Made by a program: the position numbers and the translations under genes | The notes under the pieces: generated by a model | The model's database searches: none | What the model saw: the letters and a program-made list of their open reading frames with translations, nothing else | What the model was told of the DNA's origin: nothing | Part shown: piece after piece, positions 50,167 through 64,000 of the stretch | Position numbering within the stretch: the stretch's first letter is position 1 | How the letters are laid out: every line of letters starts with the position of its first letter | From: Gemmatimonadota bacterium | Lineage (GTDB): Bacteria > Latescibacterota > UBA2968 | Length of the DNA: 64,000 nt | Assembly: GCA_009838845.1 (NCBI GenBank) | Contig: VXRD01000124.1 | Location: forward strand, 62,001-126,000 | Direction of reading: 5' to 3'

Positions 50167-51954
50167 TTACCGGGGGTAGAGGTCGAGGGTCTCGCTCCAC
50201 TGGCTTATCTGATCGGCGCGTTCGGATTGATTTTCGGCAAATACAATGGGGCGCCCGCGTCCGTCGAGGATCAGCCCGGCGGTGCCCCCTTTGACTGTGG
50301 TGTTCAGTTCTCGGCCCGGCCCGGCACCTGCGTCTGTGTTGCGCTCGGGCTGTAAGGTGAGGTGTGCTTCCTGACCTGCTTCGAGCGGGAAATGTAGAAG
50401 ATCGCCAATATTCAGGGTGCCCGATTGGGTTCCGTCGGGAAGGCCGATTTCGTATTGCGCACAGGATGTGCCGATTTTGCCCTGGGCGATGGGTGCGATA
50501 CAGGTGCCGAGGTAAATGAGGCAGTCGCGTTCAAAAACCTGCGTGGCGGCGATTTCGTTGACCGATGAAAGCACGCCGAGGTGTGGCATCATAAAGATGC
50601 TGTCAACGGCGAGGCGCGTGATGCCTTCGGGCTGGAAGGCGTCAATGAGCATAGCGGCTGTTTGCATTCGACGCGGAGCGTGAGATAGAACGCCGCCGCT
50701 TCCGACGAGGAGATCGAGGTCGCGCATTTTGATGAGGCTTTCGCCGCCTTCGGATTGGTCGAATACATCGGACAGGGTGCGCTCTGCCTGTACGCCTTTG
50801 AGACCCACGGCCAGTGCGCGGTGCTGGACAAAGGCCAGGCGCAAGGCTTCGCGGGCAATGGCCTGTTCGACCTGAAGTTCTTCGAGCATTTGCGGAATTG
50901 TGGTGGGGCGGATCATTTTGTTTTTGATGCGGTCTCGCAGGTCGGCTTCGTCGATTTTGAAAGGCACCCAGCGCATGACATCGTTGAGGCCCGCTTCGGC
51001 GAGTACGTTGGATACGCTGTAGGACATGCCGAGATTGGCAGATACCGTGCGGTTGAAGATATCGTCAAAGACGCTGAATACGTCGGTGGTGGCGCCGCCT
51101 ATGTCAACGCCCACGACATTGATATTTTGTTGTTTGGATACGGTTTGCATCATGAGGCCAACTGCGCCGGGCGTGGGCATGATGGGTGCGCCTGTCCAGG
51201 AGATGAGTTTTCGATAGCCCGGTGCTTGCGCCATGACGTGTTCGAGAAAGAGGTCGTGGATCACGTGGCGAGCTGGTCCAAGGTTTTCTTCTTCGAGCGT
51301 GGGGCGGATGTTTTCCGTGATGGTGAGGGCAGTTTTGTCGCCCAGGGTGCGTTCGATTTCCTGCGCGGCATCTTTGTTTCCAGCGTAAATGACGGGCAGT
51401 TGGTATCCCGATCCAAATCGCGGTTTGGGGTCGGCTGCCGAAATGAATTCGGCCAGTTCGACAACGTGCGAAATGGTGCCGCCATCTGTGCCGCCCGAAA
51501 GGAGCACCATATCGGGGCGCAACTGGCGAATGCGTTCGATTTTTTCGTGGGGCTGCCGCCCGTCGTTGGACGCGAGAATGTCCATGACAATTGCGCCTGC
51601 GCCGAGGGCGCAGCGCTGTGCGCTTTCGCCGGTCATGGCCTGAATGACGCCGCCGACCATCATTTGCAGGCCGCCGCCTGCGCTGCTGGTAGAAATGTAG
51701 ATGTCAACCCCGCGATGATCTTCTGCGGGTGTGATGATGGTTTCGCCGTCGAGAATTTGCCTGCCGGAGAGTTCTTCGACTTCTTGAATGGCGTTGAGTA
51801 CGCCGCGCGTGACGTCTTCATAGGGGGCTTCAACTGTGGTAGGTGCTTCGCCTCGATAGGTCTGGCGATAGACATCGCCCTTTTTTTCTATCAAGATGGC
51901 TTTGGTCGTGGTGCTGCCGCAATCGGTAGCGATGATGACGTCGAGTTTATCCAT
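50167..51954 (-). CDS. GlmL/MutL-like ASKHA-fold ATPase
   Basis: About 595 residues from ATG 51954 (MDKLDVIIATDCGSTTTKAI). It has the two phosphate loops of the actin-Hsp70-hexokinase fold (ATDCGSTTTK and VGVDIGGATTDVF), LLSGGTDGG, and other motifs of the GlmL family, named for the methylaspartate (glutamate) mutase accessory protein. A ~30-residue longer frame upstream lies in the preceding gene. No glutamate mutase subunits (GlmE/GlmS) are nearby; its partners are membrane proteins instead, so a classical role in B12-mutase repair is doubtful. Its start overlaps the end of the 52300 gene by 8 bases. This is unrelated to DNA mismatch-repair MutL. Confidence 0.85.
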   Translation of the reverse strand: MDKLDVIIATDCGSTTTKAILIEKKGDVYRQTYRGEAPTTVEAPYEDVTRGVLNAIQEVEELSGRQILDGETIITPAEDHRGVDIYISTSSAGGGLQMMVGGVIQAMTGESAQRCALGAGAIVMDILASNDGRQPHEKIERIRQLRPDMVLLSGGTDGGTISHVVELAEFISAADPKPRFGSGYQLPVIYAGNKDAAQEIERTLGDKTALTITENIRPTLEEENLGPARHVIHDLFLEHVMAQAPGYRKLISWTGAPIMPTPGAVGLMMQTVSKQQNINVVGVDIGGATTDVFSVFDDIFNRTVSANLGMSYSVSNVLAEAGLNDVMRWVPFKIDEADLRDRIKNKMIRPTTIPQMLEELQVEQAIAREALRLAFVQHRALAVGLKGVQAERTLSDVFDQSEGGESLIKMRDLDLLVGSGGVLSHAPRRMQTAAMLIDAFQPEGITRLAVDSIFMMPHLGVLSSVNEIAATQVFERDCLIYLGTCIAPIAQGKIGTSCAQYEIGLPDGTQSGTLNIGDLLHFPLEAGQEAHLTLQPERNTDAGAGPGRELNTTVKGGTAGLILDGRGRPIVFAENQSERADQISQWSETLDLYPR

Positions 51955-52300
51955 GGTTTTTGTTTTCCAGGGTTTCAATATGGCGAATGAGACAGGGAAT
52001 GCTTTCCCGCTTTTCCAGAAAGCGCGTGAAGCGGTCAAACTCGGCTGTTGAGGAGAAGATGATGGATACGAAGGGCGACAAAAAAGTCAAAAGTTGGCTG
52101 CCAATATAGTTAAAGGGTCGCCCGGTTTCAAGTAACATAATAGCTGGCGCTGTGAGTCTGCGCCTCACGATGAAGGCGGCGGCTTTTTCGGCGAGAACTT
52201 CATCGTCTTCAGTGATAGCACTTTCGGGGGGAGAAACGGCAAAGGCATGGGTGCAATAATTTTTAAGTCGGGTCAATAGCGATGTGTTTTTGGACGACAT
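51947..52300 (-). CDS. Uncharacterised small protein before the GlmL-like gene (117 aa)
   Basis: Start ATG 52300 (MSSKNTSLLTRLKNYCTHAF) avoids most of the overlap with the preceding gene; it still overlaps that gene's end by 38 bases in another frame. Features are a conserved-looking helix EKAAAFIVRRRLTAPAIMLL and a hydrophobic stretch FNYIGSQLLTFLSPFVSIIF, so perhaps a peripheral or monotopic membrane protein. I do not recognise a family. The 8-base overlap with the GlmL-like gene suggests a joint role. Confidence 0.6.
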   Translation of the reverse strand: MSSKNTSLLTRLKNYCTHAFAVSPPESAITEDDEVLAEKAAAFIVRRRLTAPAIMLLETGRPFNYIGSQLLTFLSPFVSIIFSSTAEFDRFTRFLEKRESIPCLIRHIETLENKNHG

Positions 52301-54301: not shown

Positions 54302-55552
54302 TTAGTTGCGAAACTTACGCAGGATGAGTACTGCGTTGTGACCCCCGAAGCCAAAGGAGTTGCTGATGGCGATTTCAACGGGTATTTCTCGCGCTTCATT
54401 GGGCACGTAATCGAGGTCGCATTTTGGGTCGGGTGTTTCATAGTTGATCGTGGGCGGTACCACATTGTGGTGAACCGCCAGGGTTGCTGCAATGGTTTCA
54501 ATCGCACCCGAAGCTCCCAGAAGATGTCCGGTCATGGATTTTGTCGAACTGACGGCGAGCTTTTTGGCCCGGTCGCCAAATACGGATTTGATGGCGGCTG
54601 TTTCTGCCGGATCGCCCACAGGTGTTGATGTGCCGTGTGCATTGATATAAGCTACGTCTCCGGGATTGATCTGTGCCTGCCGCATGGCACGGCACATGGC
54701 GCGGGCACCTCCCTCACCGCCAGGTGCCATACCGGTAATGTGATAGGCATCGCCAGTGTAGCCAGTCCCCACTACTTCGGCATAGATAGTGGCGCCCCGT
54801 TGTGTTGCGCGTTCGAGTTCTTCCAGAACAAGTCCACCGGCACCTTCTCCAATTACGAATCCATCTCGGTCTGCGTCAAAGGGGCGGCTGGCTTGCGTTG
54901 GGGCGTCGTTGCGGGTTGAAAGCGTTCGCGCCGCGGCAAATCCTCCGACTGACATTGGGGTAATGGCGGCTTCTGCCCCCCCTGTGATCATGACATCGGC
55001 TTCGTCGTCCCAAATTTCGCGGGCTGCATTGCCAATGGCATGGGCTGCCGAGGCGCAAGCCGTGACGGTGGTATAATTGGGGCCTTTGGCACCGAGGTGA
55101 ATGGATACTTGACCTGCGGACATGTCGGGGATCATCATGGGCACAAAAAGTGGACTGATGCGTCTTGGACCATCTTTGCGATAGGCTTCGTGCTGATCCT
55201 CAAAGGTTTGGATGCCGCCAATACCCGAGCCAAATACAACCCCGATGCGTTCGGCCTGTTCATTATTGATATCGAGACCTGCATTTTCTACGGCCTGAAC
55301 AGATGCTGCAATGGCGTACTGGGTAAAGAGATCCATGCGGCGCTGGCTTCGAGGGTCAATGCCAAAGTGCGCTGGGTCAAAGTTTTTGATTTCGGCGGCA
55401 AACTGCACGCGGAAATCAGTGGCGTCAAATTTTGTTATGGGGCCAACACCTGTTTGTCCATTGCACAATGCTTCCCAATAGCTTTCCGTAGTATTTCCAT
55501 TGGGGGCAAGTGCGCCCATGCCGGTGATGACCACTCTGCGTTGTCTGTTCAC
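54302..55552 (-). CDS. fabF: Beta-ketoacyl-ACP synthase II
   Basis: 416 residues. Catalytic Cys in VTACASAAHAIG (about residue 165), His in NAHGTSTPVGDPAET and His in KSMTGHLLGASG make the C-H-H triad of elongating ketosynthases. N-terminus RRVVITGMGALAPNG is standard. Elongates acyl-ACP with malonyl-ACP. 50 bases downstream of acpP and 11 bases upstream of rnc. Confidence 0.97.
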   Translation of the reverse strand: MNRQRRVVITGMGALAPNGNTTESYWEALCNGQTGVGPITKFDATDFRVQFAAEIKNFDPAHFGIDPRSQRRMDLFTQYAIAASVQAVENAGLDINNEQAERIGVVFGSGIGGIQTFEDQHEAYRKDGPRRISPLFVPMMIPDMSAGQVSIHLGAKGPNYTTVTACASAAHAIGNAAREIWDDEADVMITGGAEAAITPMSVGGFAAARTLSTRNDAPTQASRPFDADRDGFVIGEGAGGLVLEELERATQRGATIYAEVVGTGYTGDAYHITGMAPGGEGGARAMCRAMRQAQINPGDVAYINAHGTSTPVGDPAETAAIKSVFGDRAKKLAVSSTKSMTGHLLGASGAIETIAATLAVHHNVVPPTINYETPDPKCDLDYVPNEAREIPVEIAISNSFGFGGHNAVLILRKFRN

Positions 55553-55602
55553 TAAATGACCTCCTGGAGGCTGGAGATTGGTTCCAGCCTCCAGTTTCCG
55601 AG

Positions 55603-55842
55603 TTAATCCAGACGCTCGTCTAAGTATGCGATGGCATCGCCAACTGTTTCGAGCTTCTCGGCGTCTTCATCGGAAATTTCCATGTCAAATTCTTCTTCGA
55701 AAGCCATGACCAATTCGACTGTGTCGAGCGAGTCTGCGCCCAGATCGTCAATAAAATGGGCGTCGGCATTGACGCTATCGGCATCAACGCCGAGTTGGTC
55801 AACGATCAGGTCAGTAACTTTTTGTTGAATATCATCGGTCAT
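55603..55842 (-). CDS. acpP: Acyl carrier protein
   Basis: 79 residues, very acidic. The phosphopantetheine site is [18 protein letters not shown] (Ser of DSL). Carries growing acyl chains for FabD, FabH, FabG and FabF, all next to it. The order fabG-acpP-fabF is the standard one. Confidence 0.97.
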
Positions 55843-55876
55843 GTGAAGCCCTCCGTGATTAGTGTGTAGTGATTAT

Positions 55877-56623
55877 TTACATCACCATTCCGCCATCGAC
55901 AACGAGAACCTGTCCGGTAATATAGGCCGCGTCATCAGAAGCGAGAAAGGCTGCGGCAGCGGCGACATCTTCGGGACTGCCGAGTTTGCCCAGTGGAATC
56001 TGTGCGATCAACTGTTCTTGTATTTTGTCGTTGAGTTTGGCGGTCATGTCCGTTGGAATAAAACCGGGCGCAATGGCGTTGGCCGTAATATTGCGGCTGG
56101 CCAATTCCCTGGCTACGGATTTGGTCAGGCCAATAAGACCCGATTTGGATGCGGCGTAATTGATCTGCCCTGCATTGCCCAGAAGCCCCACGACCGATGA
56201 GACATTGATGATGCGACCGGCTCGCGCTCTCATCATGGGACGGGTGACGGCTTTGATACAATGGTACGCACCTTTGAGATTGACGTCAAGAACTGCATCC
56301 CACTCGTCTTCTTTCATACGCATCAACAAATTGTCGCGGGCGATACCCGCATTGTTGACGAGCACATCGATTTTGCCCCAGGTGTCGAGGACGGTTTCGA
56401 CAAGGGATTCAACAGATTCGGCATTGGAGACATCGGTCTGTTGTACAAGGGCTTCACGGCCTTGTGCGCGGATTTTTTCGGCCACTGCTTCTGCAGCTTC
56501 TGTGCTTTGGCTGGCACATACGGCGATGTTGGCCCCTTCGCGTGCAAGGCGCAGGGCAATGGCCTCGCCAATGCCGCGGGATCCGCCCGTTACAAGGGCT
56601 GTTTTACCTGCGAGTCGGTTCAT
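55877..56623 (-). CDS. fabG: 3-oxoacyl-ACP reductase
   Basis: 248 residues, SDR fold: TGGSRGIGEAIA (NADPH loop), NNAGIARDNLL, SSVVGLLGNAGQINYAASKSG with the Ser-Tyr-Lys triad, and the FabG-typical end ITGQVLVVDGGMVM. Reduces 3-oxoacyl-ACP. In the run between fabD and acpP. Confidence 0.96.
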   Translation of the reverse strand: MNRLAGKTALVTGGSRGIGEAIALRLAREGANIAVCASQSTEAAEAVAEKIRAQGREALVQQTDVSNAESVESLVETVLDTWGKIDVLVNNAGIARDNLLMRMKEDEWDAVLDVNLKGAYHCIKAVTRPMMRARAGRIINVSSVVGLLGNAGQINYAASKSGLIGLTKSVARELASRNITANAIAPGFIPTDMTAKLNDKIQEQLIAQIPLGKLGSPEDVAAAAAFLASDDAAYITGQVLVVDGGMVM

Positions 56624-56650
56624 GGGATAGTTACCTGTTAGTTGAACACT

Positions 56651-57568
56651 CTAAAGTTGTTCTATAGCTTCCAATGTGCCGGCTTCGTGGACCGGAATAT
56701 TTCGGTCAATTCGGCGCAGGAGTCCCTTGAGCACATTGCCTGGCCCCACTTCGAGGGCTTCGGTCATGCCTTCTGCAATGAGTCGTTGCATGGATTCGGT
56801 CCAGCGAACCGGCGAAATAACTTGCTCGATCAACAGGTCTTTGAGCAGATCTGGATCGCGGGTGGATTCAGCAGTGACATTGGGTATTACGGGAATTTGC
56901 GCTTGAGCAAATGGCACATCGTCGAGCATGTCGGTCAGTGCTGTTACGGCTGGCTGCATCAGGGCCGAGTGAAATGCGCCGCCTACGGGCAGGAGCACGG
57001 CGCGTTTGGCTCCCAGTGCTTTGGCTTTTTCGAGTGCTTCATCAACGGCATTTTCCTCGCCAGATAGGACCACTTGTCCGGGGCAATTGAAATTGGCTGT
57101 TGTAACATGGCCCGAAGAACTGAGGTCAGCGCAAAGACGAATCATTACGTCGTCGTCAAGACCGAGCACTGCAGCCATGGTGCCTGGCCGAATTTTTCCC
57201 GCGACTTGCATGGCATGTCCGCGAACGCTGACGACCCGAAAGCCGTCTTCGACGCGCATGACACCTGCTGCAACGAGGGCGGCGAGTTCTCCGACACTGT
57301 GTCCTGCAACGAGGTCGGGTTGCAGTCCCCGGCTTTTAAGTACTTCAAGAGCGGCAATGCTGTGGGCAAAAATTGCCGGTTGTGTGACTGCGGTTTGTTT
57401 GAGTGACTCGGCAGGACCGCTAAAGCAGAATGATTTGATGTCTATGTCGAGCACATCGTCGGCAAGATCAAAAATTTTGTGCGCTTCTGGTGCGGTCCTG
57501 TACAGATCGTATCCCATGCCAACAAATTGGGAGCCTTGCCCTGGAAATAGGAAAGCTTTTTTTGTCAT
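56651..57568 (-). CDS. fabD: Malonyl-CoA:ACP transacylase
   Basis: 305 residues. FLFPGQGSQFVGMG at the N-terminus, the nucleophile in VAGHSVGELAALVAAGV (GHSVG) and the catalytic His in GGAFHSALMQPA are all present. It loads malonyl groups onto ACP for FabH and FabF. It sits directly behind fabH, with no gap between the stop codon of fabH and its own start. Confidence 0.96.
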   Translation of the reverse strand: MTKKAFLFPGQGSQFVGMGYDLYRTAPEAHKIFDLADDVLDIDIKSFCFSGPAESLKQTAVTQPAIFAHSIAALEVLKSRGLQPDLVAGHSVGELAALVAAGVMRVEDGFRVVSVRGHAMQVAGKIRPGTMAAVLGLDDDVMIRLCADLSSSGHVTTANFNCPGQVVLSGEENAVDEALEKAKALGAKRAVLLPVGGAFHSALMQPAVTALTDMLDDVPFAQAQIPVIPNVTAESTRDPDLLKDLLIEQVISPVRWTESMQRLIAEGMTEALEVGPGNVLKGLLRRIDRNIPVHEAGTLEAIEQL

Positions 57569-58561
57569 TTAATAAGCCCAGGTTAGCAGGGTGCTGCCCC
57601 AGGTATATCCCGCACCGGCACTGGCGAGCAGCACATTGTCACCGCGGCTGAGACGGCCCTGTTCGACTGCTTCAGACAGGCCAATGGGAATAGTGGCAGC
57701 CGAGGTGTTGGCATAGCGGTCGATATTGACTACAACGCGATCTTTGGGTATATCTGTGCGTTTAACACAGGCGTCGATAATGCGCTTGTTGGCCTGATGT
57801 GGCACAAAAAGCGCGATGTCTTTGCCGACAAGGCCGTTGCGTTCGAGGATTTGAGCGGAAACTTCGGCCATCTTGGGAACTGCAAATTTGAAAACTTCGC
57901 GACCATCTTGATAAATATAGTGCATTTTCTTATCAACGGTTTCACGAGAGGCCGGAAGCAGACTGCCGCCAGCGGGTTGTCGCAGATGTTTTACGCCGCT
58001 GCCATCAGAATAGAGAATAAAGTCTTTAAGCCCCAAACCGGGTTCGCCGGGTTCGAGTAAAACCGCGCCCGCGCCATCGCCAAAGAGCACACAGGTCTCG
58101 CGGTCGGTGTAGTCTGTGATGCTGCTCATTTTGTCGGCCCCAATGACGACCACGCGTTTGTGTGCGCCCGTTTCAACAAATTGCCCTCCCACCATTAGGG
58201 CATATAGAAAACCGCTACATGCTGCCGATAGGTCGAAAGCCCAGGCATTTGCGGCACCAATTTGGTCCTGTACCAGACAGGCTGATGACGGAAATACCAT
58301 GTCGGGGGTGATGGTCGCAACGATGATCAAGTCGATATCTCTGGCATCGAGTCCTTTGTTGTGCAGAATGGCTTCCATAGATTTTAGAGCCATAAAAGAT
58401 GTGCCCAACCCCTCGTTGAGGATGCGGCGTTCTTTGATGCCTGTGCGGGAGGTGATCCACTCGTCGGATGTATCGACCATTTTTTCGAGGTCGGCATTGG
58501 TCAGCTTTTGTTCTGGGACGTAGTGCCCCACCCCGCTGATGGTGGCTGTAAGGGGATACAT
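57569..58561 (-). CDS. fabH: Beta-ketoacyl-ACP synthase III
   Basis: About 330 residues. Catalytic Cys in LSAACSGFLYAL, His in VPHQANKRIID and Asn in DRYANTSAATIP. ATG 58561 is chosen; the frame extends to a TTG at 58582 that overlaps the AGGAG ribosome site. Starts fatty-acid chains from acetyl-CoA-type primers and malonyl-ACP. plsX, which normally lies between rpmF and fabH, is absent here (the gap to rpmF is only 44 bases). Confidence 0.95.
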   Translation of the reverse strand: MYPLTATISGVGHYVPEQKLTNADLEKMVDTSDEWITSRTGIKERRILNEGLGTSFMALKSMEAILHNKGLDARDIDLIIVATITPDMVFPSSACLVQDQIGAANAWAFDLSAACSGFLYALMVGGQFVETGAHKRVVVIGADKMSSITDYTDRETCVLFGDGAGAVLLEPGEPGLGLKDFILYSDGSGVKHLRQPAGGSLLPASRETVDKKMHYIYQDGREVFKFAVPKMAEVSAQILERNGLVGKDIALFVPHQANKRIIDACVKRTDIPKDRVVVNIDRYANTSAATIPIGLSEAVEQGRLSRGDNVLLASAGAGYTWGSTLLTWAY

Positions 58562-58605
58562 GATAATTACTCTGCTCCTCAAAGTCTGCGCGGTGTTAGA
58601 CCAAA

Positions 58606-58788
58606 CTAAAAGCCATCGGTTTCAATCACTTCGCGCCCATTGTAATAACCGCAATTTCCACAGACCCGATGGGGTATTTTTTGATACCCGCAGTTGGGGC
58701 ATTCGTTAAAGGTGGGTAAACGCAATTTCCAATTGGCACGGCGTTTACCGGTGCGAGAATTTGAACTTTTTCGTTTGGGGTTGGCCAT
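58606..58788 (-). CDS. rpmF: Ribosomal protein L32
   Basis: 60 residues starting MANPKRKSSNSRTGKRRANW, with the zinc-type Cys set (CPNCGY and CGNCGYY). ATG 58788 is chosen; the frame upstream overlaps yceD and adds no family match. Standard partner of yceD and the fab genes. Confidence 0.95.
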   Translation of the reverse strand: MANPKRKSSNSRTGKRRANWKLRLPTFNECPNCGYQKIPHRVCGNCGYYNGREVIETDGF

Positions 58789-58817
58789 GGTGGTATCCTT
58801 TTTGATTAATGCTCTGT

Positions 58818-59333
58818 TTACTGTTCGCTTTCTTTGAGTGCGCGGAGAGCATCCCAACGCGGGTCAGGGCTCTTTTCACTCTCGTATTCCAGCAATTCGT
58901 GGGGATCTTGCTCATAGCGTTCACAAGGGCCAGAAGGCGATGCAGCGCAGGTTGGGATCATGGGTAGTTCAAGCAAAATATAATCTTTTACGTCATTGCC
59001 AAGGTCTATTTCGCCGGGTTCTTCATTGAGCCAGATCAGCGTTTCGTCATCGTCATCGTCCATCTGGTCGGGACGACCCTTTTGAAAGATGAATGTGTAT
59101 GAGATGACGATGGGAAATTCAATGGGTTCCAGGCACCGCGCGCATTCGGGGCGCACCAGACAGGTGGTTTGCCCTTTGGCCGAGAGCGAGTCGCCGTATT
59201 TGTACACGACGAGACGGGTGTTGATGGCACCTGCAAATTGGGAGTCTTCTTCGGTAATGTGCAGGTCGGCTGGCGTTTCTTCAAACGCAAATTCGGTTTC
59301 GCCTTCCCGTATATCTCTCAGGTCGATTTTCAT
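58818..59333 (-). CDS. yceD: YceD/DUF177 family protein (large ribosomal subunit biogenesis)
   Basis: 171 residues with DUF177 features: FVF-like N-terminal beta region, TTCLVRPECARCLEPIEFP with Cys pairs, acidic middle (QMDDDDDETLI) and the closing region GNDVKDYILLELPMIP...GPCERYEQDPHE. It always precedes rpmF in this type of operon. Linked to 23S rRNA accumulation in other bacteria (family knowledge). Confidence 0.9.
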   Translation of the reverse strand: MKIDLRDIREGETEFAFEETPADLHITEEDSQFAGAINTRLVVYKYGDSLSAKGQTTCLVRPECARCLEPIEFPIVISYTFIFQKGRPDQMDDDDDETLIWLNEEPGEIDLGNDVKDYILLELPMIPTCAASPSGPCERYEQDPHELLEYESEKSPDPRWDALRALKESEQ

Positions 59334-59350
59334 AAGGTAGGTGATCTCTT

Positions 59351-59749
59351 TTACCCAAAAAAGAAAGCCACTTCTTTGGCTGCGTTTTCCAGTGAATCTG
59401 AGGCGTGTACGGCATTGTTTTGAATATTGGTTGCAAAGTCTTTGCGAATGGTGCCTTCTGCGGCTTCTTCGGGATTGGTGCTGCCAATGGCCTCGCGCAA
59501 AAATGCAACGGCATTGTCCCGCTCAAGTGCCACGGGCACACAGGGGCCAGAGGTCATAAAATCGAGCAGGTCGTTGTAAAAAGGCCGTTGGCGATGTACT
59601 GTATAAAATTCGGCGGCCTGTTGGCGCGTGAGGCGAACCATTTCCAGATTTACAATTCGAAAATTTTTTTCTTCGAGACGGCGAATGATTTCACCGATTA
59701 CATTTTGTGCAACAGCGTCGGGTTTGACGATGAGCAGGGTGCGTTCCAT
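59351..59749 (-). CDS. ndk: Nucleoside diphosphate kinase
   Basis: 132 residues. ERTLLIVKPDAVAQNVIG at the N-terminus and the catalytic His in NNAVHASDSLENAAKE (about 115; NxxHxSDS motif) are intact. Equilibrates NTP pools by a phosphohistidine. It is the first gene behind the promoter at 59800-59828 and reads into yceD-rpmF-fab after an 17-base gap. Confidence 0.96.
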   Translation of the reverse strand: MERTLLIVKPDAVAQNVIGEIIRRLEEKNFRIVNLEMVRLTRQQAAEFYTVHRQRPFYNDLLDFMTSGPCVPVALERDNAVAFLREAIGSTNPEEAAEGTIRKDFATNIQNNAVHASDSLENAAKEVAFFFG

Positions 59750-59876: not shown

Positions 59877-59905
59877 TTGACATAAGTCCAATGGACTCCT
59901 TTAAT
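59877..59905 (+). promoter_or_regulatory. Sigma-70 promoter of the ether-lipid-like operon
   Basis: TTGACA (59877-59882), a 17-base spacer and TTTAAT (59900-59905) on the forward strand, upstream of ATG 59967. It is divergent from the ndk promoter; the two -35 boxes are about 50 bases apart. Confidence 0.65.
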
Positions 59906-59966: not shown

Positions 59967-61571
59967 ATGAGTGTTGTTATTCCATTTTTGAACCACAAGG
60001 TTCTTTTTGTTACAGGTGCAACTGGTTTTTTGGCCAAGGGATTGGTGGGAAAAATCCTTTGCCATGCGCCAGATGTTGGGCGCATTTATCTTATGGTGCG
60101 CCCTCAAAGGCGGGGAGGGGGCAAGCCCATTAGTGCCGAAGACCGGCTGCAAAGGGAGATTTTGCAATCCAGTGCTTTTGCGCGATTGCGCGCAAAACTC
60201 GGGGATCGTTTTGACATTGTGATGCGCGAAAAAGTCATTGCGGTGCCGAGCGATTTGACACAAGATCACCTCGGCATGGACGCCGAGACATATACACAGT
60301 TGGCCAGTGAAGTCGATATTGTGATTAACAGCGCAGCCAATGTGGTTTTCGACGCGCCTCTGGATACGGCGCTGATGCAAAATACGCTTGGGGCCAGGCG
60401 CGTTGTCGAATTTGCCAAGGCGTGTCGCGATGCCGTGCTCGTGCATGTTTCAACGGCTTATGTCAATGGACGGCAAAAGCGGATCATTTCTGAAGACGCG
60501 CCCGTGCCCGATCAAACGGTGGCACAACAAATGGGAAATGGTCGCGCGCCCGATTATAGTCTGGATTCGGAAATTGAAGGTATTCTGGCGTATAGCCGCG
60601 AAGTAGAGGCGGCGTCGCGAAGTCCGGAGCGGTTTGCGGAATTTACGCGTTTGCTCGACCGGCAGAACCGGGGCAAGCGCGTTACAGCGCATCGGCGGGA
60701 ACACCAGTTGGAGGCTTTGCGCCAGCGATGGGTGCGAGAACGGATGGTGGCACGCGGGATAAAGCGCGGGCGAGAGTTGGGCTGGCACGACAGTTATTCT
60801 TTTACCAAGGCCATGGGCGAGCAGATGGTTGCCAAGACCCGGGGCGATTTGCCAACTGTGATCGTGCGCCCTTCTATTATTGAGAGCAGTTTGTCCGATC
60901 CAGAACCGGGATGGCTGGAAGGGCTAAAAGTGGCCGATCCACTTATTGTACACTACGGCAAGGGGCGTTTGACGGATTTTCCCGCGCGTCCAGAAGCGGT
61001 TTTAGACGTTATTCCCGTGGATATTATTATCAATGTGATTATCGGTGTTTTGCCTTCCATCCATGAAAATGCCGATTTGAAGGTTTACCATGTGACAACA
61101 AGTGCAAAGAATCCGGTGAAGGTAGGTGAGGTCGTCCAGTATGTGTACGAGTATTTTGTGAACAATCCAATGCGAGACCGCAATGGCAAACCCATTGCGG
61201 TGACGCCGTGGACCTATCCGACGCTGTCACAATTTCGTCGAAAGTTGCGCTATAAGTATTTGTTGCCCCTCAAAATTTTGCAACGGGCACTGAATTTGGT
61301 GCCGCTGGTCAATGTTTCAAAACGCAAACGCCATTTGTCGATTTTGAATGCCACTTTGGAAAATACGCTGTCGCTTACCGATATTTACGGTTCTTATATT
61401 TCTCTGGATTGCGTATTTCAAAACGACAATATGAATCAGTTGTTTGACAGCATGGATGCAGAAGATAGAGAAATTTTTAATTGTGATGTTTCGCGCATCG
61501 ATTGGCCCTCTTACGTAAAAGAGGTTCACATTCCCGGCTTGCAACGCCATGTGCTCAAGACAGGTGTTTAG
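59967..61571 (+). CDS. Fatty acyl-CoA reductase, eukaryote-like (FAR with sterile/FAR_C domain)
   Basis: About 534 residues. N-terminal Rossmann domain of the male-sterility type: VLFVTGATGFLAKGLVGKI, NSAANVVFDAPL, VHVSTAYVNG, and the active-site YSFTKAMGEQM (YxxxK). The C-terminal ~100 residues match the FAR_C domain of animal and plant FARs: YGSYISLDCVFQNDN, then CDVSRIDWPSYVKEVHIPGL. Reduces fatty acyl-CoA (or acyl-ACP) to fatty alcohol with NADPH. An insert with many Arg residues (~190-260) lies between the catalytic parts. The TTG at 59946 is a weaker alternative start. The next gene begins 9 bases after the stop. Confidence 0.88.
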   Translation: MSVVIPFLNHKVLFVTGATGFLAKGLVGKILCHAPDVGRIYLMVRPQRRGGGKPISAEDRLQREILQSSAFARLRAKLGDRFDIVMREKVIAVPSDLTQDHLGMDAETYTQLASEVDIVINSAANVVFDAPLDTALMQNTLGARRVVEFAKACRDAVLVHVSTAYVNGRQKRIISEDAPVPDQTVAQQMGNGRAPDYSLDSEIEGILAYSREVEAASRSPERFAEFTRLLDRQNRGKRVTAHRREHQLEALRQRWVRERMVARGIKRGRELGWHDSYSFTKAMGEQMVAKTRGDLPTVIVRPSIIESSLSDPEPGWLEGLKVADPLIVHYGKGRLTDFPARPEAVLDVIPVDIIINVIIGVLPSIHENADLKVYHVTTSAKNPVKVGEVVQYVYEYFVNNPMRDRNGKPIAVTPWTYPTLSQFRRKLRYKYLLPLKILQRALNLVPLVNVSKRKRHLSILNATLENTLSLTDIYGSYISLDCVFQNDNMNQLFDSMDAEDREIFNCDVSRIDWPSYVKEVHIPGLQRHVLKTGV

Positions 61572-61580
61572 GCTTCTCCC

Positions 61581-63521
61581 ATGACCTCACGCGATAGATC
61601 GGATACTCGCCCATTGCACGAAACACTGCTCGACGATCTGGAGCAGATGTTGGCTATTTATGACCAATCGGTTCAGCTTATGCTCGAAGCGGTGCGTCAC
61701 GATGGCTATTTTGACGATCTCGATCCAGATGCGCTTGTCTGGCCCAAAAGTCAGAGCGGTGCGATGGATATGGAGGCGCTGCTATTTCGCGCACAGCTTG
61801 TGGATGCGATTTTTCAAGGTTTGCCCGAGGTTCGCGATGAGCGTTTGGACGAGGCGTATCGTCCTTTTGCGGAGTTGCTTCCGCAATATCACCTGGGCAG
61901 CCGAATTTATTTGCAACTCAGGCGACAATTTGTCGAGCGAGGCCGCGGGGATGCGAAAGATTTTTTGAGGTTGTATCAATCCCTGTATTTGAAGGCTCTG
62001 GCACAGGCGGAGCTACACGCGCCCGAAGCCGTGGAAGAGGCATTGGCTCAGGTGCATATTACACAAGTGCCAATGTCGCACGCCCGCGCTGTTGCAGAGG
62101 CGCTTGACAATGTGGAGGCGGATGAGGATGCGCACTGGGCCGAGGAGTACAGTTGTGAACGAGATGGCGAGCGGATTGAGGGATCTTTGCGCGATTTGCT
62201 GCAAGATGTGGCACAGCGCACGCTCAATTTGATCGCCGCGGGAGGGTTGCTGTCAACGCGGTATAATTATTTGACGAATTTTGGCTGGTTTGGCGTGTCG
62301 GTGTGGAAGGTTATTGTGGATGCGGAGGTGGCTTTGGCGCAGTTGCGCGACGATGTGGATGCGGATGGGATAGATGATGATGTGCTGGACATCAAGGCGC
62401 TGTTGATTGAATTTTTGCACGCGCATCAGGAAGATCCCACCAGGCTGCGTCCCAGGTTGTATTGGTATGGGCAGGAATATAGTTATTTGACGCGGGATAT
62501 GATTGATTTGTCGGTTAAGCTAATATGCGATGTGAACGCGCAAATCGATCGTGTTGGACAAAGTGTTTCGCGTATGGAAATTCCCGCTTTGCTCGCAGAT
62601 ACGGCACGGGGACGATTTTTGGAATATCCCAATGTCGGACGTCGGGGGCAATTTTCAAAGTTGCAGCGAGGAATGCGTTTTGCCCGGTGGATGGGGACTT
62701 CGCTCAAGATAGGACGTCAAAAAAAGAAATTGTTGGAAAGAGAGGCCGATCCCATCCGTCGCCGCGAAGCCGGATGGCGCACCTGGCTCGATTGGGGACG
62801 TCGCACGCTGGATATTTTTGATATTCGCGTCAACGTTTATATCGATCCCCATTTTGAAGCCATTGTACGAGATTTGGGAGCCGATGCAGAAGATCGGCGT
62901 CTTATCTTTTTGCCAACGCATCAGAGTTTGTTTGACCATCCCGTTTTGTACAAAGTTTTGCAGTCTCGAGAGTTTATGAATGCGATGGGATGGGAAAGAC
63001 CCGAACCTTGTGTGATTCTGGCGCGTACTGGGCTGGCGCGCTCGGGTATCAAAATTGGGTCGAAACAGATCACGCAGTTTGGGATGACGTCTGAGGTTTT
63101 TGATCAGATTCTGGAAAATGTCGATGGCTATGTGATGCTCGAGCGATCCCGTGCTGCGGGCCATACGACACAGCGCGTGGCACAGGCATTGACAGAGCGT
63201 CCGGGCGTTATTTATCCCATGGCGACGACCGCTGCTTTTGCGGTTCAGCAATTTCCGCTTCAACACGGAGTGTTTGCACAATTGCCCCAGGATGTGGTGA
63301 TTGTGCCGATTGCGTACCGCGGGCTTCACGCGCTGTGGCCCAAGTGTCCAAAGGGCAATATCAATATTAATCCGGGGCAGGTCAATGTGTGGGTCTCACC
63401 GCCCATGTTGGGGGAGACGACTTTACTGCCCAAAAGACGGTCGCTGCGGATTCAGTCCGAGGCTGCCGCGCTGTTTCAAGCGGTGCATATTGCGACGTTG
63501 TTGAATCCGGAAGAGTCGTGA
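61581..63521 (+). CDS. Glycerol-phosphate/DHAP acyltransferase-like protein (HX4D family)
   Basis: 646 residues. The acyltransferase domain lies at ~430-620: FLPTHQSLFDHPVLY has the HX4D catalytic motif. The usual FPEGTRS motif III is changed to YPMATTA, with the Glu lost; GVFAQLPQDVVIVPIAY follows as motif IV. The first ~400 residues (rich in acid and Arg residues, largely helical) have no family I recognise. Placed between a fatty acyl reductase and an alkyl-DHAP synthase-like gene, it is the natural candidate for the DHAP acyltransferase (GNPAT role). This is inference from context, since HX4D also fits lyso-phospholipid acyltransferases. Confidence 0.75.
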   Translation: MTSRDRSDTRPLHETLLDDLEQMLAIYDQSVQLMLEAVRHDGYFDDLDPDALVWPKSQSGAMDMEALLFRAQLVDAIFQGLPEVRDERLDEAYRPFAELLPQYHLGSRIYLQLRRQFVERGRGDAKDFLRLYQSLYLKALAQAELHAPEAVEEALAQVHITQVPMSHARAVAEALDNVEADEDAHWAEEYSCERDGERIEGSLRDLLQDVAQRTLNLIAAGGLLSTRYNYLTNFGWFGVSVWKVIVDAEVALAQLRDDVDADGIDDDVLDIKALLIEFLHAHQEDPTRLRPRLYWYGQEYSYLTRDMIDLSVKLICDVNAQIDRVGQSVSRMEIPALLADTARGRFLEYPNVGRRGQFSKLQRGMRFARWMGTSLKIGRQKKKLLEREADPIRRREAGWRTWLDWGRRTLDIFDIRVNVYIDPHFEAIVRDLGADAEDRRLIFLPTHQSLFDHPVLYKVLQSREFMNAMGWERPEPCVILARTGLARSGIKIGSKQITQFGMTSEVFDQILENVDGYVMLERSRAAGHTTQRVAQALTERPGVIYPMATTAAFAVQQFPLQHGVFAQLPQDVVIVPIAYRGLHALWPKCPKGNININPGQVNVWVSPPMLGETTLLPKRRSLRIQSEAAALFQAVHIATLLNPEES

Positions 63522-63584
63522 ATCAACGAATCAACGAATCAACGAATCAACGAATCGGCGAATCAACGAATCAACGAATCAGCG
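63521..63584 (+). repeat. Octanucleotide tandem repeat, 8 units of AATCAACG
   Basis: Eight head-to-tail units of 8 bases; six are AATCAACG, and two differ (AATCGGCG, AATCAGCG). It begins at the last base of the acyltransferase stop codon. A related array in inverted sense follows 36 bases later. Confidence 0.85.
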
Positions 63585-63619
63585 AAGGAGTTAGTAGTGA
63601 TTTTGGGTGGTGGGGCGGG

Positions 63620-63656
63620 ATTCGTCTATTCGTCTATTCGTCTATTCGTCTATTCG
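63620..63656 (+). repeat. Octanucleotide tandem repeat, 4.6 units of ATTCGTCT
   Basis: Four perfect units of ATTCGTCT and a partial fifth. It resembles the reverse complement of the first array (ATTCGTTG) at six of eight positions, so the two could pair into an imperfect hairpin between the acyltransferase and AGPS-like genes. Confidence 0.8.
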
Positions 63657-63674
63657 CACTTTGTGAGGTGTGAA

Positions 63675-64000
63675 ATGAATGAACTGATGGTTGTCGCATT
63701 TTTACTGGTGCTGGTATTTTTGCTCGTTCGAGGGCGTCGCGCTTTTGCCAGTAAAGACCGTTTTTCTGAGGGGGCAGAAGGCGAGCGGTTTGCACACAAG
63801 TGGGGGTATAAGGATACGCGGTTTGAGTTTGACGATGACAGGACCGTGCATGTGACGGGAACGCGGTATCCGTTATGTGGCTATCGGATGCCGTATTTTT
63901 TGCCTTTTGTCGAAGAGGTGCTCGATGTGCCGGTCCGTCCCGAAGATATGGGGCAAGAGGTCGAGCACCGCGATTTGCCCGCGCCCGTGGCAAATGATGA
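63675..64000 (+). CDS. Alkyldihydroxyacetonephosphate synthase-like protein, N-terminus, cut by window edge
   Basis: The first 108 residues. A membrane anchor (MVVAFLLVLVFLLV) is followed by KWGYKDTRFEFDDDRTVHVT and then GTRYPLCGYRMPYFLPFVEEVL. This matches the start of AGPS enzymes, whose human form has WGYNDSKF, then a short polar stretch, TGKRYPLSG and P-F at the same spacing (from memory). The catalytic FAD-binding domain would lie beyond the window. AGPS swaps the acyl group of acyl-DHAP for a fatty alcohol to make an ether bond; FAR and an acyltransferase upstream would supply its substrates. The membrane anchor is unlike the peroxisomal targeting of the human enzyme. Confidence 0.75.
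   Translation, partial: MNELMVVAFLLVLVFLLVRGRRAFASKDRFSEGAEGERFAHKWGYKDTRFEFDDDRTVHVTGTRYPLCGYRMPYFLPFVEEVLDVPVRPEDMGQEVEHRDLPAPVAND

Follow-up and report, generated by a model that had tools for sequence, protein, structure and literature searches.

A four-gene operon resembling the animal ether-lipid pathway in a class of Latescibacterota, and its probable role at the start of phospholipid synthesis

Introduction

In animals, FAR1, GNPAT, and AGPS make ether lipids in peroxisomes, with AGPS—the alkyl-dihydroxyacetone phosphate (alkyl-DHAP) synthase—using fatty alcohol as a substrate. Bacteria are taken to start their phospholipids by acylating GpsA-made glycerol 3-phosphate (G3P), with PlsX/PlsY or PlsB. 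The present analysis concerns a stretch of 64,000 nucleotides (hereafter, the window) of contig VXRD01000124.1 from a bacterium deposited as Gemmatimonadota bacterium (GenBank assembly GCA_009838845.1) and placed by GTDB in the Latescibacterota (UBA2968). Near its end begins an operon encoding a fatty acyl reductase (FAR), a divergent acyltransferase (AT), AGPS, and a short-chain dehydrogenase/reductase (SDR). Judging from its genes, this operon is quite likely the bacterial equivalent of the ether-lipid pathway of animal peroxisomes, probably serving as the main entry to membrane phospholipids in the class that carries it.

The closest described system is that of Myxococcus xanthus, in which the MXAN_1676-1675-1674 operon encodes AGPS, a FAR-GNPAT fusion, and an NAD-epimerase family protein, with the AGPS route contributing little to ether lipids (PMC9131029); the window operon is thus not the first of its bacterial kind. 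ElbD from the same organism comprises FAR1-like, ACS, ACP, and AGPAT-like domains (PMC9131029). The anaerobic plsA/plsR plasmalogen pathway of Clostridia reduces finished diacyl lipids, and involves no DHAP or long-chain alcohols (PMC9702350). With respect to the phylum itself, a 2025 survey covered 92 Latescibacterota metagenome-assembled genomes (MAGs) from the Black Sea, of which 67 had agps homologues and 50 had elbD homologues (PMC11868695).

The alkyl-DHAP synthase and its operon partners

The genes lie on the plus strand in the order FAR-AT-AGPS-SDR, and the operon, of at least four genes, continues beyond the window, past the end of which the contig was read. Positions above 64000 are given in window numbering, the window being positions 62001-126000 of the contig (C124), and locus L002 being C124:121000-140999, such that L002 position + 58999 equals the window position. 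A sequence-only reading of the window had proposed a three-gene operon resembling the eukaryotic ether-lipid (plasmalogen precursor) pathway. FAR, AT, and AGPS do stand together, and the number of genes has to be raised to at least four, as SDR follows; the overall reading was supported, with AGPS found to be complete past position 64000 and its partner genes, FAR and an acyltransferase, found in relatives.

By its sequence, the third gene is a complete AGPS. The full-length protein contains FAD_binding_4 (E 2.1e-39) and FAD-oxidase_C (E 7.4e-38) domains, both above the Pfam cut-off, and its best match in the PDB is guinea-pig alkyl-DHAP synthase (E 1.7e-152, 512 bits), to which it is 42.9% identical over 562 residues. 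R369, Y527, and the histidines at 564-566 align with R419, Y578, and the HHH loop of the guinea-pig enzyme, in which R419 and Y578 were located via the mutant PDB entries 4bc7 (R419H) and 4bca (Y578F). These residues, together with T259, are invariant in all 10 class members compared. Thus, the FAD-binding domain and active-site residues that the sequence-only reading had named as a check beyond position 64000 are present, and the two N-terminal motifs on which it had based the assignment, WGYxDxxF and TGxRYPLxG, align with WGYNDSKF and TGKRYPLSG of the mammalian enzyme. The N-terminus, MNELMVVAFLLVLVFLLVR, resembles a membrane anchor.

That the protein might instead be a generic FAD oxidoreductase of the glycolate/lactate dehydrogenase type, with no ether lipid being made, is largely refuted and exceedingly improbable. 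Generic GlcD models do score about 170 bits against it, far under their cut-offs, and assignment as a GlcD-type dehydrogenase was rejected against the 512 bits to AGPS. The next PDB match is Dictyostelium AGPS (2e-89), with the nearest dehydrogenases at about 1e-24 and the best of these at about 90 bits; furthermore, the N-terminal region typical of AGPS is conserved, as is the HHH loop.

The FAR had been credited with a eukaryote-like C-terminal domain, and indeed a Sterile domain (E 1e-15) was found to follow NAD_binding_4 (E 3.5e-65), both above cut-off. The protein carries GATGFLAK from residue 17 (GxxGF) and YSFTK from residue 277 (YxxxK), and its best PDB match is the fatty acyl-CoA reductase 7eoz (E 1e-89). 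The SDR adjoining AGPS is of the classical type, with TGASSGLG from residue 10 (TGxxxGxG) and YGASK from residue 153 (YxxxK).

In the proposed pathway, FAR would reduce a fatty acyl thioester to fatty alcohol, while AT would transfer an acyl chain onto DHAP, the presumed acceptor, to give acyl-DHAP. AGPS would then exchange the acyl chain of acyl-DHAP for the fatty alcohol, yielding 1-alkyl-DHAP, the ketone of which would be reduced by SDR, in the presumed direction, to 1-alkyl-G3P. The single PlsC of the genome would add the sn-2 acyl chain, followed by the usual head-group steps, such that the products would be 1-O-alkyl-2-acyl phospholipids and DHAP, not G3P, would be the main entry. What the enzymes do, the use of DHAP by AT as its acceptor, the way in which SDR runs, and a membrane made up mostly of alkyl ether lipids are all inferences from the genes.

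Absence of the canonical G3P start

The phylum set comprised 64 genomes, 47 from the operon-bearing class (families f1-f4) and 17 from other classes. PlsY (PF02660) was found in none of the 47 class genomes versus 12 of the 17 others; PlsX (PF02504) in none of the 47 above cut-off—there being one sub-threshold match of 25 bits—versus 15 of 17; and GpsA (PF07479) in none of the 47 versus 12 of 17, with the controls matched in each case. Fisher tests gave p < 1e-8 for each of the three, for genomes that share ancestry. Four class genomes (G037, G038, G049, and G050) are single contigs, and assembly gaps therefore do not explain the absences. The GPAT_C domain (PF19277) of GNPAT/PlsB-type enzymes was likewise matched in 0 of the 64 phylum genomes, with the E. 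coli control giving a match. In the genome of the window, the single Pfam acyltransferase is a 222-residue PlsC encoded between cmk and rpsA. Thus, the class appears, from its gene content, to have lost the usual G3P start (GpsA, PlsX, and PlsY, with no PlsB). This loss across the class is the most striking point of the analysis, and one beyond the reach of a first reading from sequence alone.

The loss has a counterpart in the locus itself. Sister classes carry yceD-plsX-fabH, whereas in the window fabH follows rpmF after 23 bp, without plsX, and there is no room for plsX at this junction in any member of the order whose contig covers the site. The window cluster is otherwise the canonical yceD-rpmF-plsX-fabH-fabD-fabG-acpP-fabF, minus plsX.

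Loss of PlsX/PlsY as a general trait of AGPS-bearing bacteria was considered and rejected: of AGPS-bearing genomes, 42 were searched, almost exclusively from other phyla, and 27 of these had PlsY. The replacement appears confined to this class, with perhaps a few others sharing it. PlsY was not found in 14 of 40 AGPS-bearing genomes of other phyla searched (G064-G103; Planctomycetota, Acidobacteriota, Neomarinimicrobiota, Actinomycetota, and others), in which the route may have taken over, the MAGs may be incomplete, or another acyltransferase may act.

A divergent acyltransferase

The acyltransferase had been read as a counterpart of GNPAT. This did not hold at the level of sequence: membership of the GNPAT/PlsB family was rejected, there being no GPAT_C domain and no EGTR block, and the placement in the PlsC-like superfamily comes from fold and profile-profile comparison. 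The match of AT to the Pfam Acyltransferase family is weak (E 0.054), with PF01553 matching 20 of the 34 class sequences that were used as the AT family set for the profile, motif counts, and model input (best E 1.3e-4). Searches of PDB sequences with the AT protein and with the 34-member profile gave no relevant match, and a search of viral contigs with AT gave none. An AlphaFold2 model built from the 34 sequences (pLDDT 85.1, pTM 0.89) showed a long N-terminal region of helices followed by a C-terminal domain, for which the best Foldseek match in the PDB was Thermotoga maritima PlsC (5kym; E 1.2e-4, probability 1.00). Profile-profile comparison (hhalign) placed the same C-terminal region with PlsC/GNPAT-type enzymes (probability 92, E 5e-7). 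From its sequence and model, AT is thus assigned to the glycerolipid acyltransferase superfamily, with a predicted PlsC-like fold, and not to the GNPAT or PlsB family.

Main or side route

Because GpsA, PlsX, and PlsY are missing, the operon is read as the main or only start of phospholipid synthesis. Several observations weigh against this reading. The pattern of PlsX, PlsY, and GpsA sets one clade against the others, and so probably reflects a single switch at the root of that clade. Four genomes of genus g13 have AT and no AGPS match, and the class therefore has no strict requirement for AGPS. Two features of AT leave its substrate uncertain: the canonical form of EGTR block III is missing, the aligned positions reading YPMATT / GTT, and of the HX4D motif—correctly noted earlier for the window protein, with H at 447—only the H is invariant among relatives, the D being E in 7 of 34. 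Finally, GlpK, 53% identical to E. coli GlpK (in a search with combined E. coli PgsA-GlpD-GlpK as the query), is encoded in nearly all genomes of the order, and GlpD-like proteins in most. With GlpK present, these genomes cannot be said to be wholly devoid of G3P, and AT could acylate glycerol-derived G3P.

The presence of GlpK and GlpD-like proteins counts in favor of another explanation, namely that the operon is a side branch for alkyl ethers, with ester phospholipids starting from glycerol-derived G3P and AT being a G3P acyltransferase that substitutes for PlsB/PlsY. The retention of AT in genomes without AGPS, the minor part of AGPS in the ether lipids of M. xanthus (PMC9131029), and the many AGPS genomes of other phyla that keep PlsY also speak for it. 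We regard this explanation as unlikely: GpsA is missing class-wide, and G3P would therefore not come from DHAP by GpsA; in several f4 genomes, single-contig or near-complete, GpsA is missing and no GlpK-like match exceeds about 30% identity; the block-III arginine on which G3P acyltransferases rely is not present in AT; and AT lies directly 5′ of AGPS in one operon.

The DHAP-based start can be put in a broader form, that is, that the whole class has abandoned the G3P start in favor of a DHAP backbone, with the first chain being an ether introduced by AGPS, the stereocenter being set by SDR at the lipid stage rather than by GpsA, and the membranes being largely 1-O-alkyl-2-acyl. This we put forward tentatively, being slightly more doubtful than convinced. 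If true, a class with an animal-like DHAP ether route in place of GpsA, PlsX/PlsY, and PlsB would depart from the bacterial rule, and would be a natural case of complete pathway replacement adjoining a fatty-acid synthesis cluster. Such a case would also have implications for the origin of the eukaryotic ether-lipid enzymes, and uncultured Latescibacterota would be predicted to have dominant 1-O-alkyl glycerols.

Distribution and linkage of the operon genes

Among the 64 phylum genomes, AGPS was found in 42, FAR-Sterile in 45, and AT in 46, all within one class and with none in the 17 genomes of other classes. The four-gene operon is conserved in every family of the order of the window, and the layout with fabF-acpP-fabG-fabD-fabH-rpmF-yceD-ndk diverging from FAR-AT-AGPS-SDR recurs in f1 and f2 wherever the contig is long enough. 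Because it is conserved across many species, the operon is not a chance arrangement. The named relatives, with AGPS up to 96% identical, are MAGs carrying either the name Candidatus Latescibacterota or the label Gemmatimonadota.

The sister order (f4) retains AGPS and SDR as a pair, with AT encoded by itself at another site. In most of its genomes, FAR forms the beginning of a protein of about 1400 residues with AMP-ligase and PlsC-type domains, in the ElbD layout. Such ElbD-like proteins were observed beside a YegS-type lipid kinase gene at L053:7836-12032, L054:6100-10323, L057:6114-10343, and L058:5864-10087.

Two genomes, G018 (f3) and G054 (g13), carry a different AGPS (L050:7902-9674 and L051:8297-10060, with a different SDR behind each), grouping in the tree with a Myxococcota sequence near animal AGPS. 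In G018, this AGPS lies within the same operon, the gene having apparently been swapped in place. The different-clade AGPS of these two genomes and the AGPS-less g13 genomes point to a reshuffling of the system among class members. Animal and Dictyostelium AGPS sit on very long branches in the tree, which is read here without a direction for any exchange of the gene between bacteria and eukaryotes.

AGPS homologues are widespread, with at least 548 matches, the best 80 of which include Chloroflexota, Neomarinimicrobiota, Acidobacteriota, Cyanobacteria, and others. Both the acyltransferase slot before AGPS and the SDR slot after it recur outside the phylum: among 57 such AGPS loci, a PlsC-type acyltransferase stands beside AGPS, alone or fused behind FAR, in 28, and SDR is found in 26. 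One Neomarinimicrobiota locus (L110) has FAR-acyltransferase-AGPS-SDR in the exact order of the window, with an acyltransferase of the canonical HX4D/EGTRS type. This conservation of slots across phyla is the best evidence for SDR as a putative alkyl-DHAP reductase and for AT as the likely acyltransferase of the pathway.

The same linkage bears on whether FAR mainly feeds wax esters or other storage lipids, with its neighbors not forming one pathway. FARs with the NAD_binding_4 and Sterile layout also yield wax precursors in other bacteria. Nevertheless, this explanation is very improbable, given that FAR, acyltransferase, AGPS, and SDR are linked across the whole order and several other phyla, that FAR-acyltransferase fusions lie directly 5′ of AGPS in other phyla, and that fatty alcohol is a required substrate of AGPS.

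Features of the locus

The coordinates are collected in Table 1. The good promoter noted in the sequence-only reading can be recognized by eye; a stricter promoter scan, which accepts only −10 boxes with A as their second base, did not list it.

Table 1. Positions, in window numbering, of the operon and its neighboring features.
Feature	Position	Strand	Description
Promoter-like TTGACA-N17-TTTAAT	59877-59905	+	5′ of operon; by eye, 11/12 consensus positions
FAR, fatty acyl reductase	59967 (ATG)-61571 (stop)	+	534 aa; NAD_binding_4 + Sterile; predicted fatty alcohol supply
AT, divergent long glycerolipid acyltransferase	61581-63521	+	646 aa; begins 9 bp after FAR; helical N-terminal part, predicted PlsC-like C-terminal fold; proposed sn-1 acyltransferase giving acyl-DHAP
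8-bp tandem repeats GAATCAAC x8.4 and ATTCGTCT x4.6	63520-63656	+	between AT and AGPS; pair into imperfect hairpin
AGPS, alkyl-DHAP synthase	63675 (ATG)-65507 (L002:4676-6508)	+	610 aa; in-window part 63675-64000; N-terminal hydrophobic anchor (putative), FAD_binding_4, FAD-oxidase_C, active-site residues
SDR reductase	65542-66354	+	270 aa; 34 bp after AGPS; beyond window
GH3-type (NagZ-like) gene	66303-67406	+	in this genus; overlaps SDR end; beyond window
YegS-type lipid kinase	67609-68505	+	in this genus; after GH3 gene; beyond window
fabF, acpP, fabG, fabD, fabH, rpmF, yceD, ndk	54302-59749	-	divergent from operon; order-wide conserved neighbor
fabH	57569-58582	-	
rpmF	58606-58788	-	
rpmF-fabH junction	58583-58605	.	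23 bp; site where sister classes carry plsX; ~1.2 kb from operon

The repeat hairpin between AT and AGPS is strong, although imperfect (RNA z-score −3.7). The AT-AGPS and AGPS-SDR spacers vary in length across members of the genus, the shortest being tens of bases long and the longest about 1.8 kb, as if sequence inserts there. In one genus member (G029:C339:54846-58587), AT and AGPS are each broken by a frameshift or stop, reflecting either assembly error or decay.

The GH3 and YegS-type kinase stretch corresponds to L002:7304-9506. The kinase gene adjoins the SDR neighborhood in f1 and f2, but FAR in f4; in other families too, a YegS-type lipid kinase accompanies FAR. The kinase is a possible alkylglycerol or diacylglycerol kinase of the pathway. 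Elsewhere in the window, positions 50167-52038 encode a protein of the Pfam MutL family (PF13941; E 1.8e-126).

Comparison with known systems

An AGPS-type ether-lipid operon in bacteria and agps homologues in the phylum are already known; what is unusual here is the apparent class-wide replacement of the canonical phospholipid start. A literature search, with most subscription journals outside its coverage, returned no report of the four-gene operon, the divergent AT, or the absence of gpsA, plsX, and plsY in the class.

The plsA/plsR system likewise gives ether lipids in bacteria, but the route proposed for Latescibacterota would proceed via DHAP and fatty alcohol. The FAR/AMP-ligase/PlsC-type protein of the sister order resembles M. 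xanthus ElbD, whereas in the order of the window FAR is a stand-alone protein in the AGPS operon. The operon shares with MXAN_1676-1674 a bacterial setting and the combination of AGPS, FAR, and an acyltransferase. It differs in that FAR and AT are separate proteins, the acyltransferase is of another family, SDR follows, and the class is without the canonical G3P route.

Each of the four steps of the mammalian peroxisomal pathway (FAR1, GNPAT, AGPS, and DHRS7B/PexRAP) has one putative counterpart among the operon genes; the window AGPS is 43% identical to its mammalian counterpart, with the active site kept, and FAR has the NAD_binding_4 and Sterile domains. Unlike that pathway, the genes form a bacterial operon with no peroxisomal setting, and AT is not GNPAT by sequence. 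A PEDS1-type desaturase was not found either, the CarF/PEDS1 family (Lipid_desat, PF10520) matching 0 of the 64 genomes, but no control genome either; of the ether-lipid (plasmalogen precursor) pathway suggested at first, it is alkyl ethers that are indicated, with nothing pointing to plasmalogens. Overall, the route that is a side route in mammals is here probably the main one, since GpsA, PlsX, and PlsY are absent.

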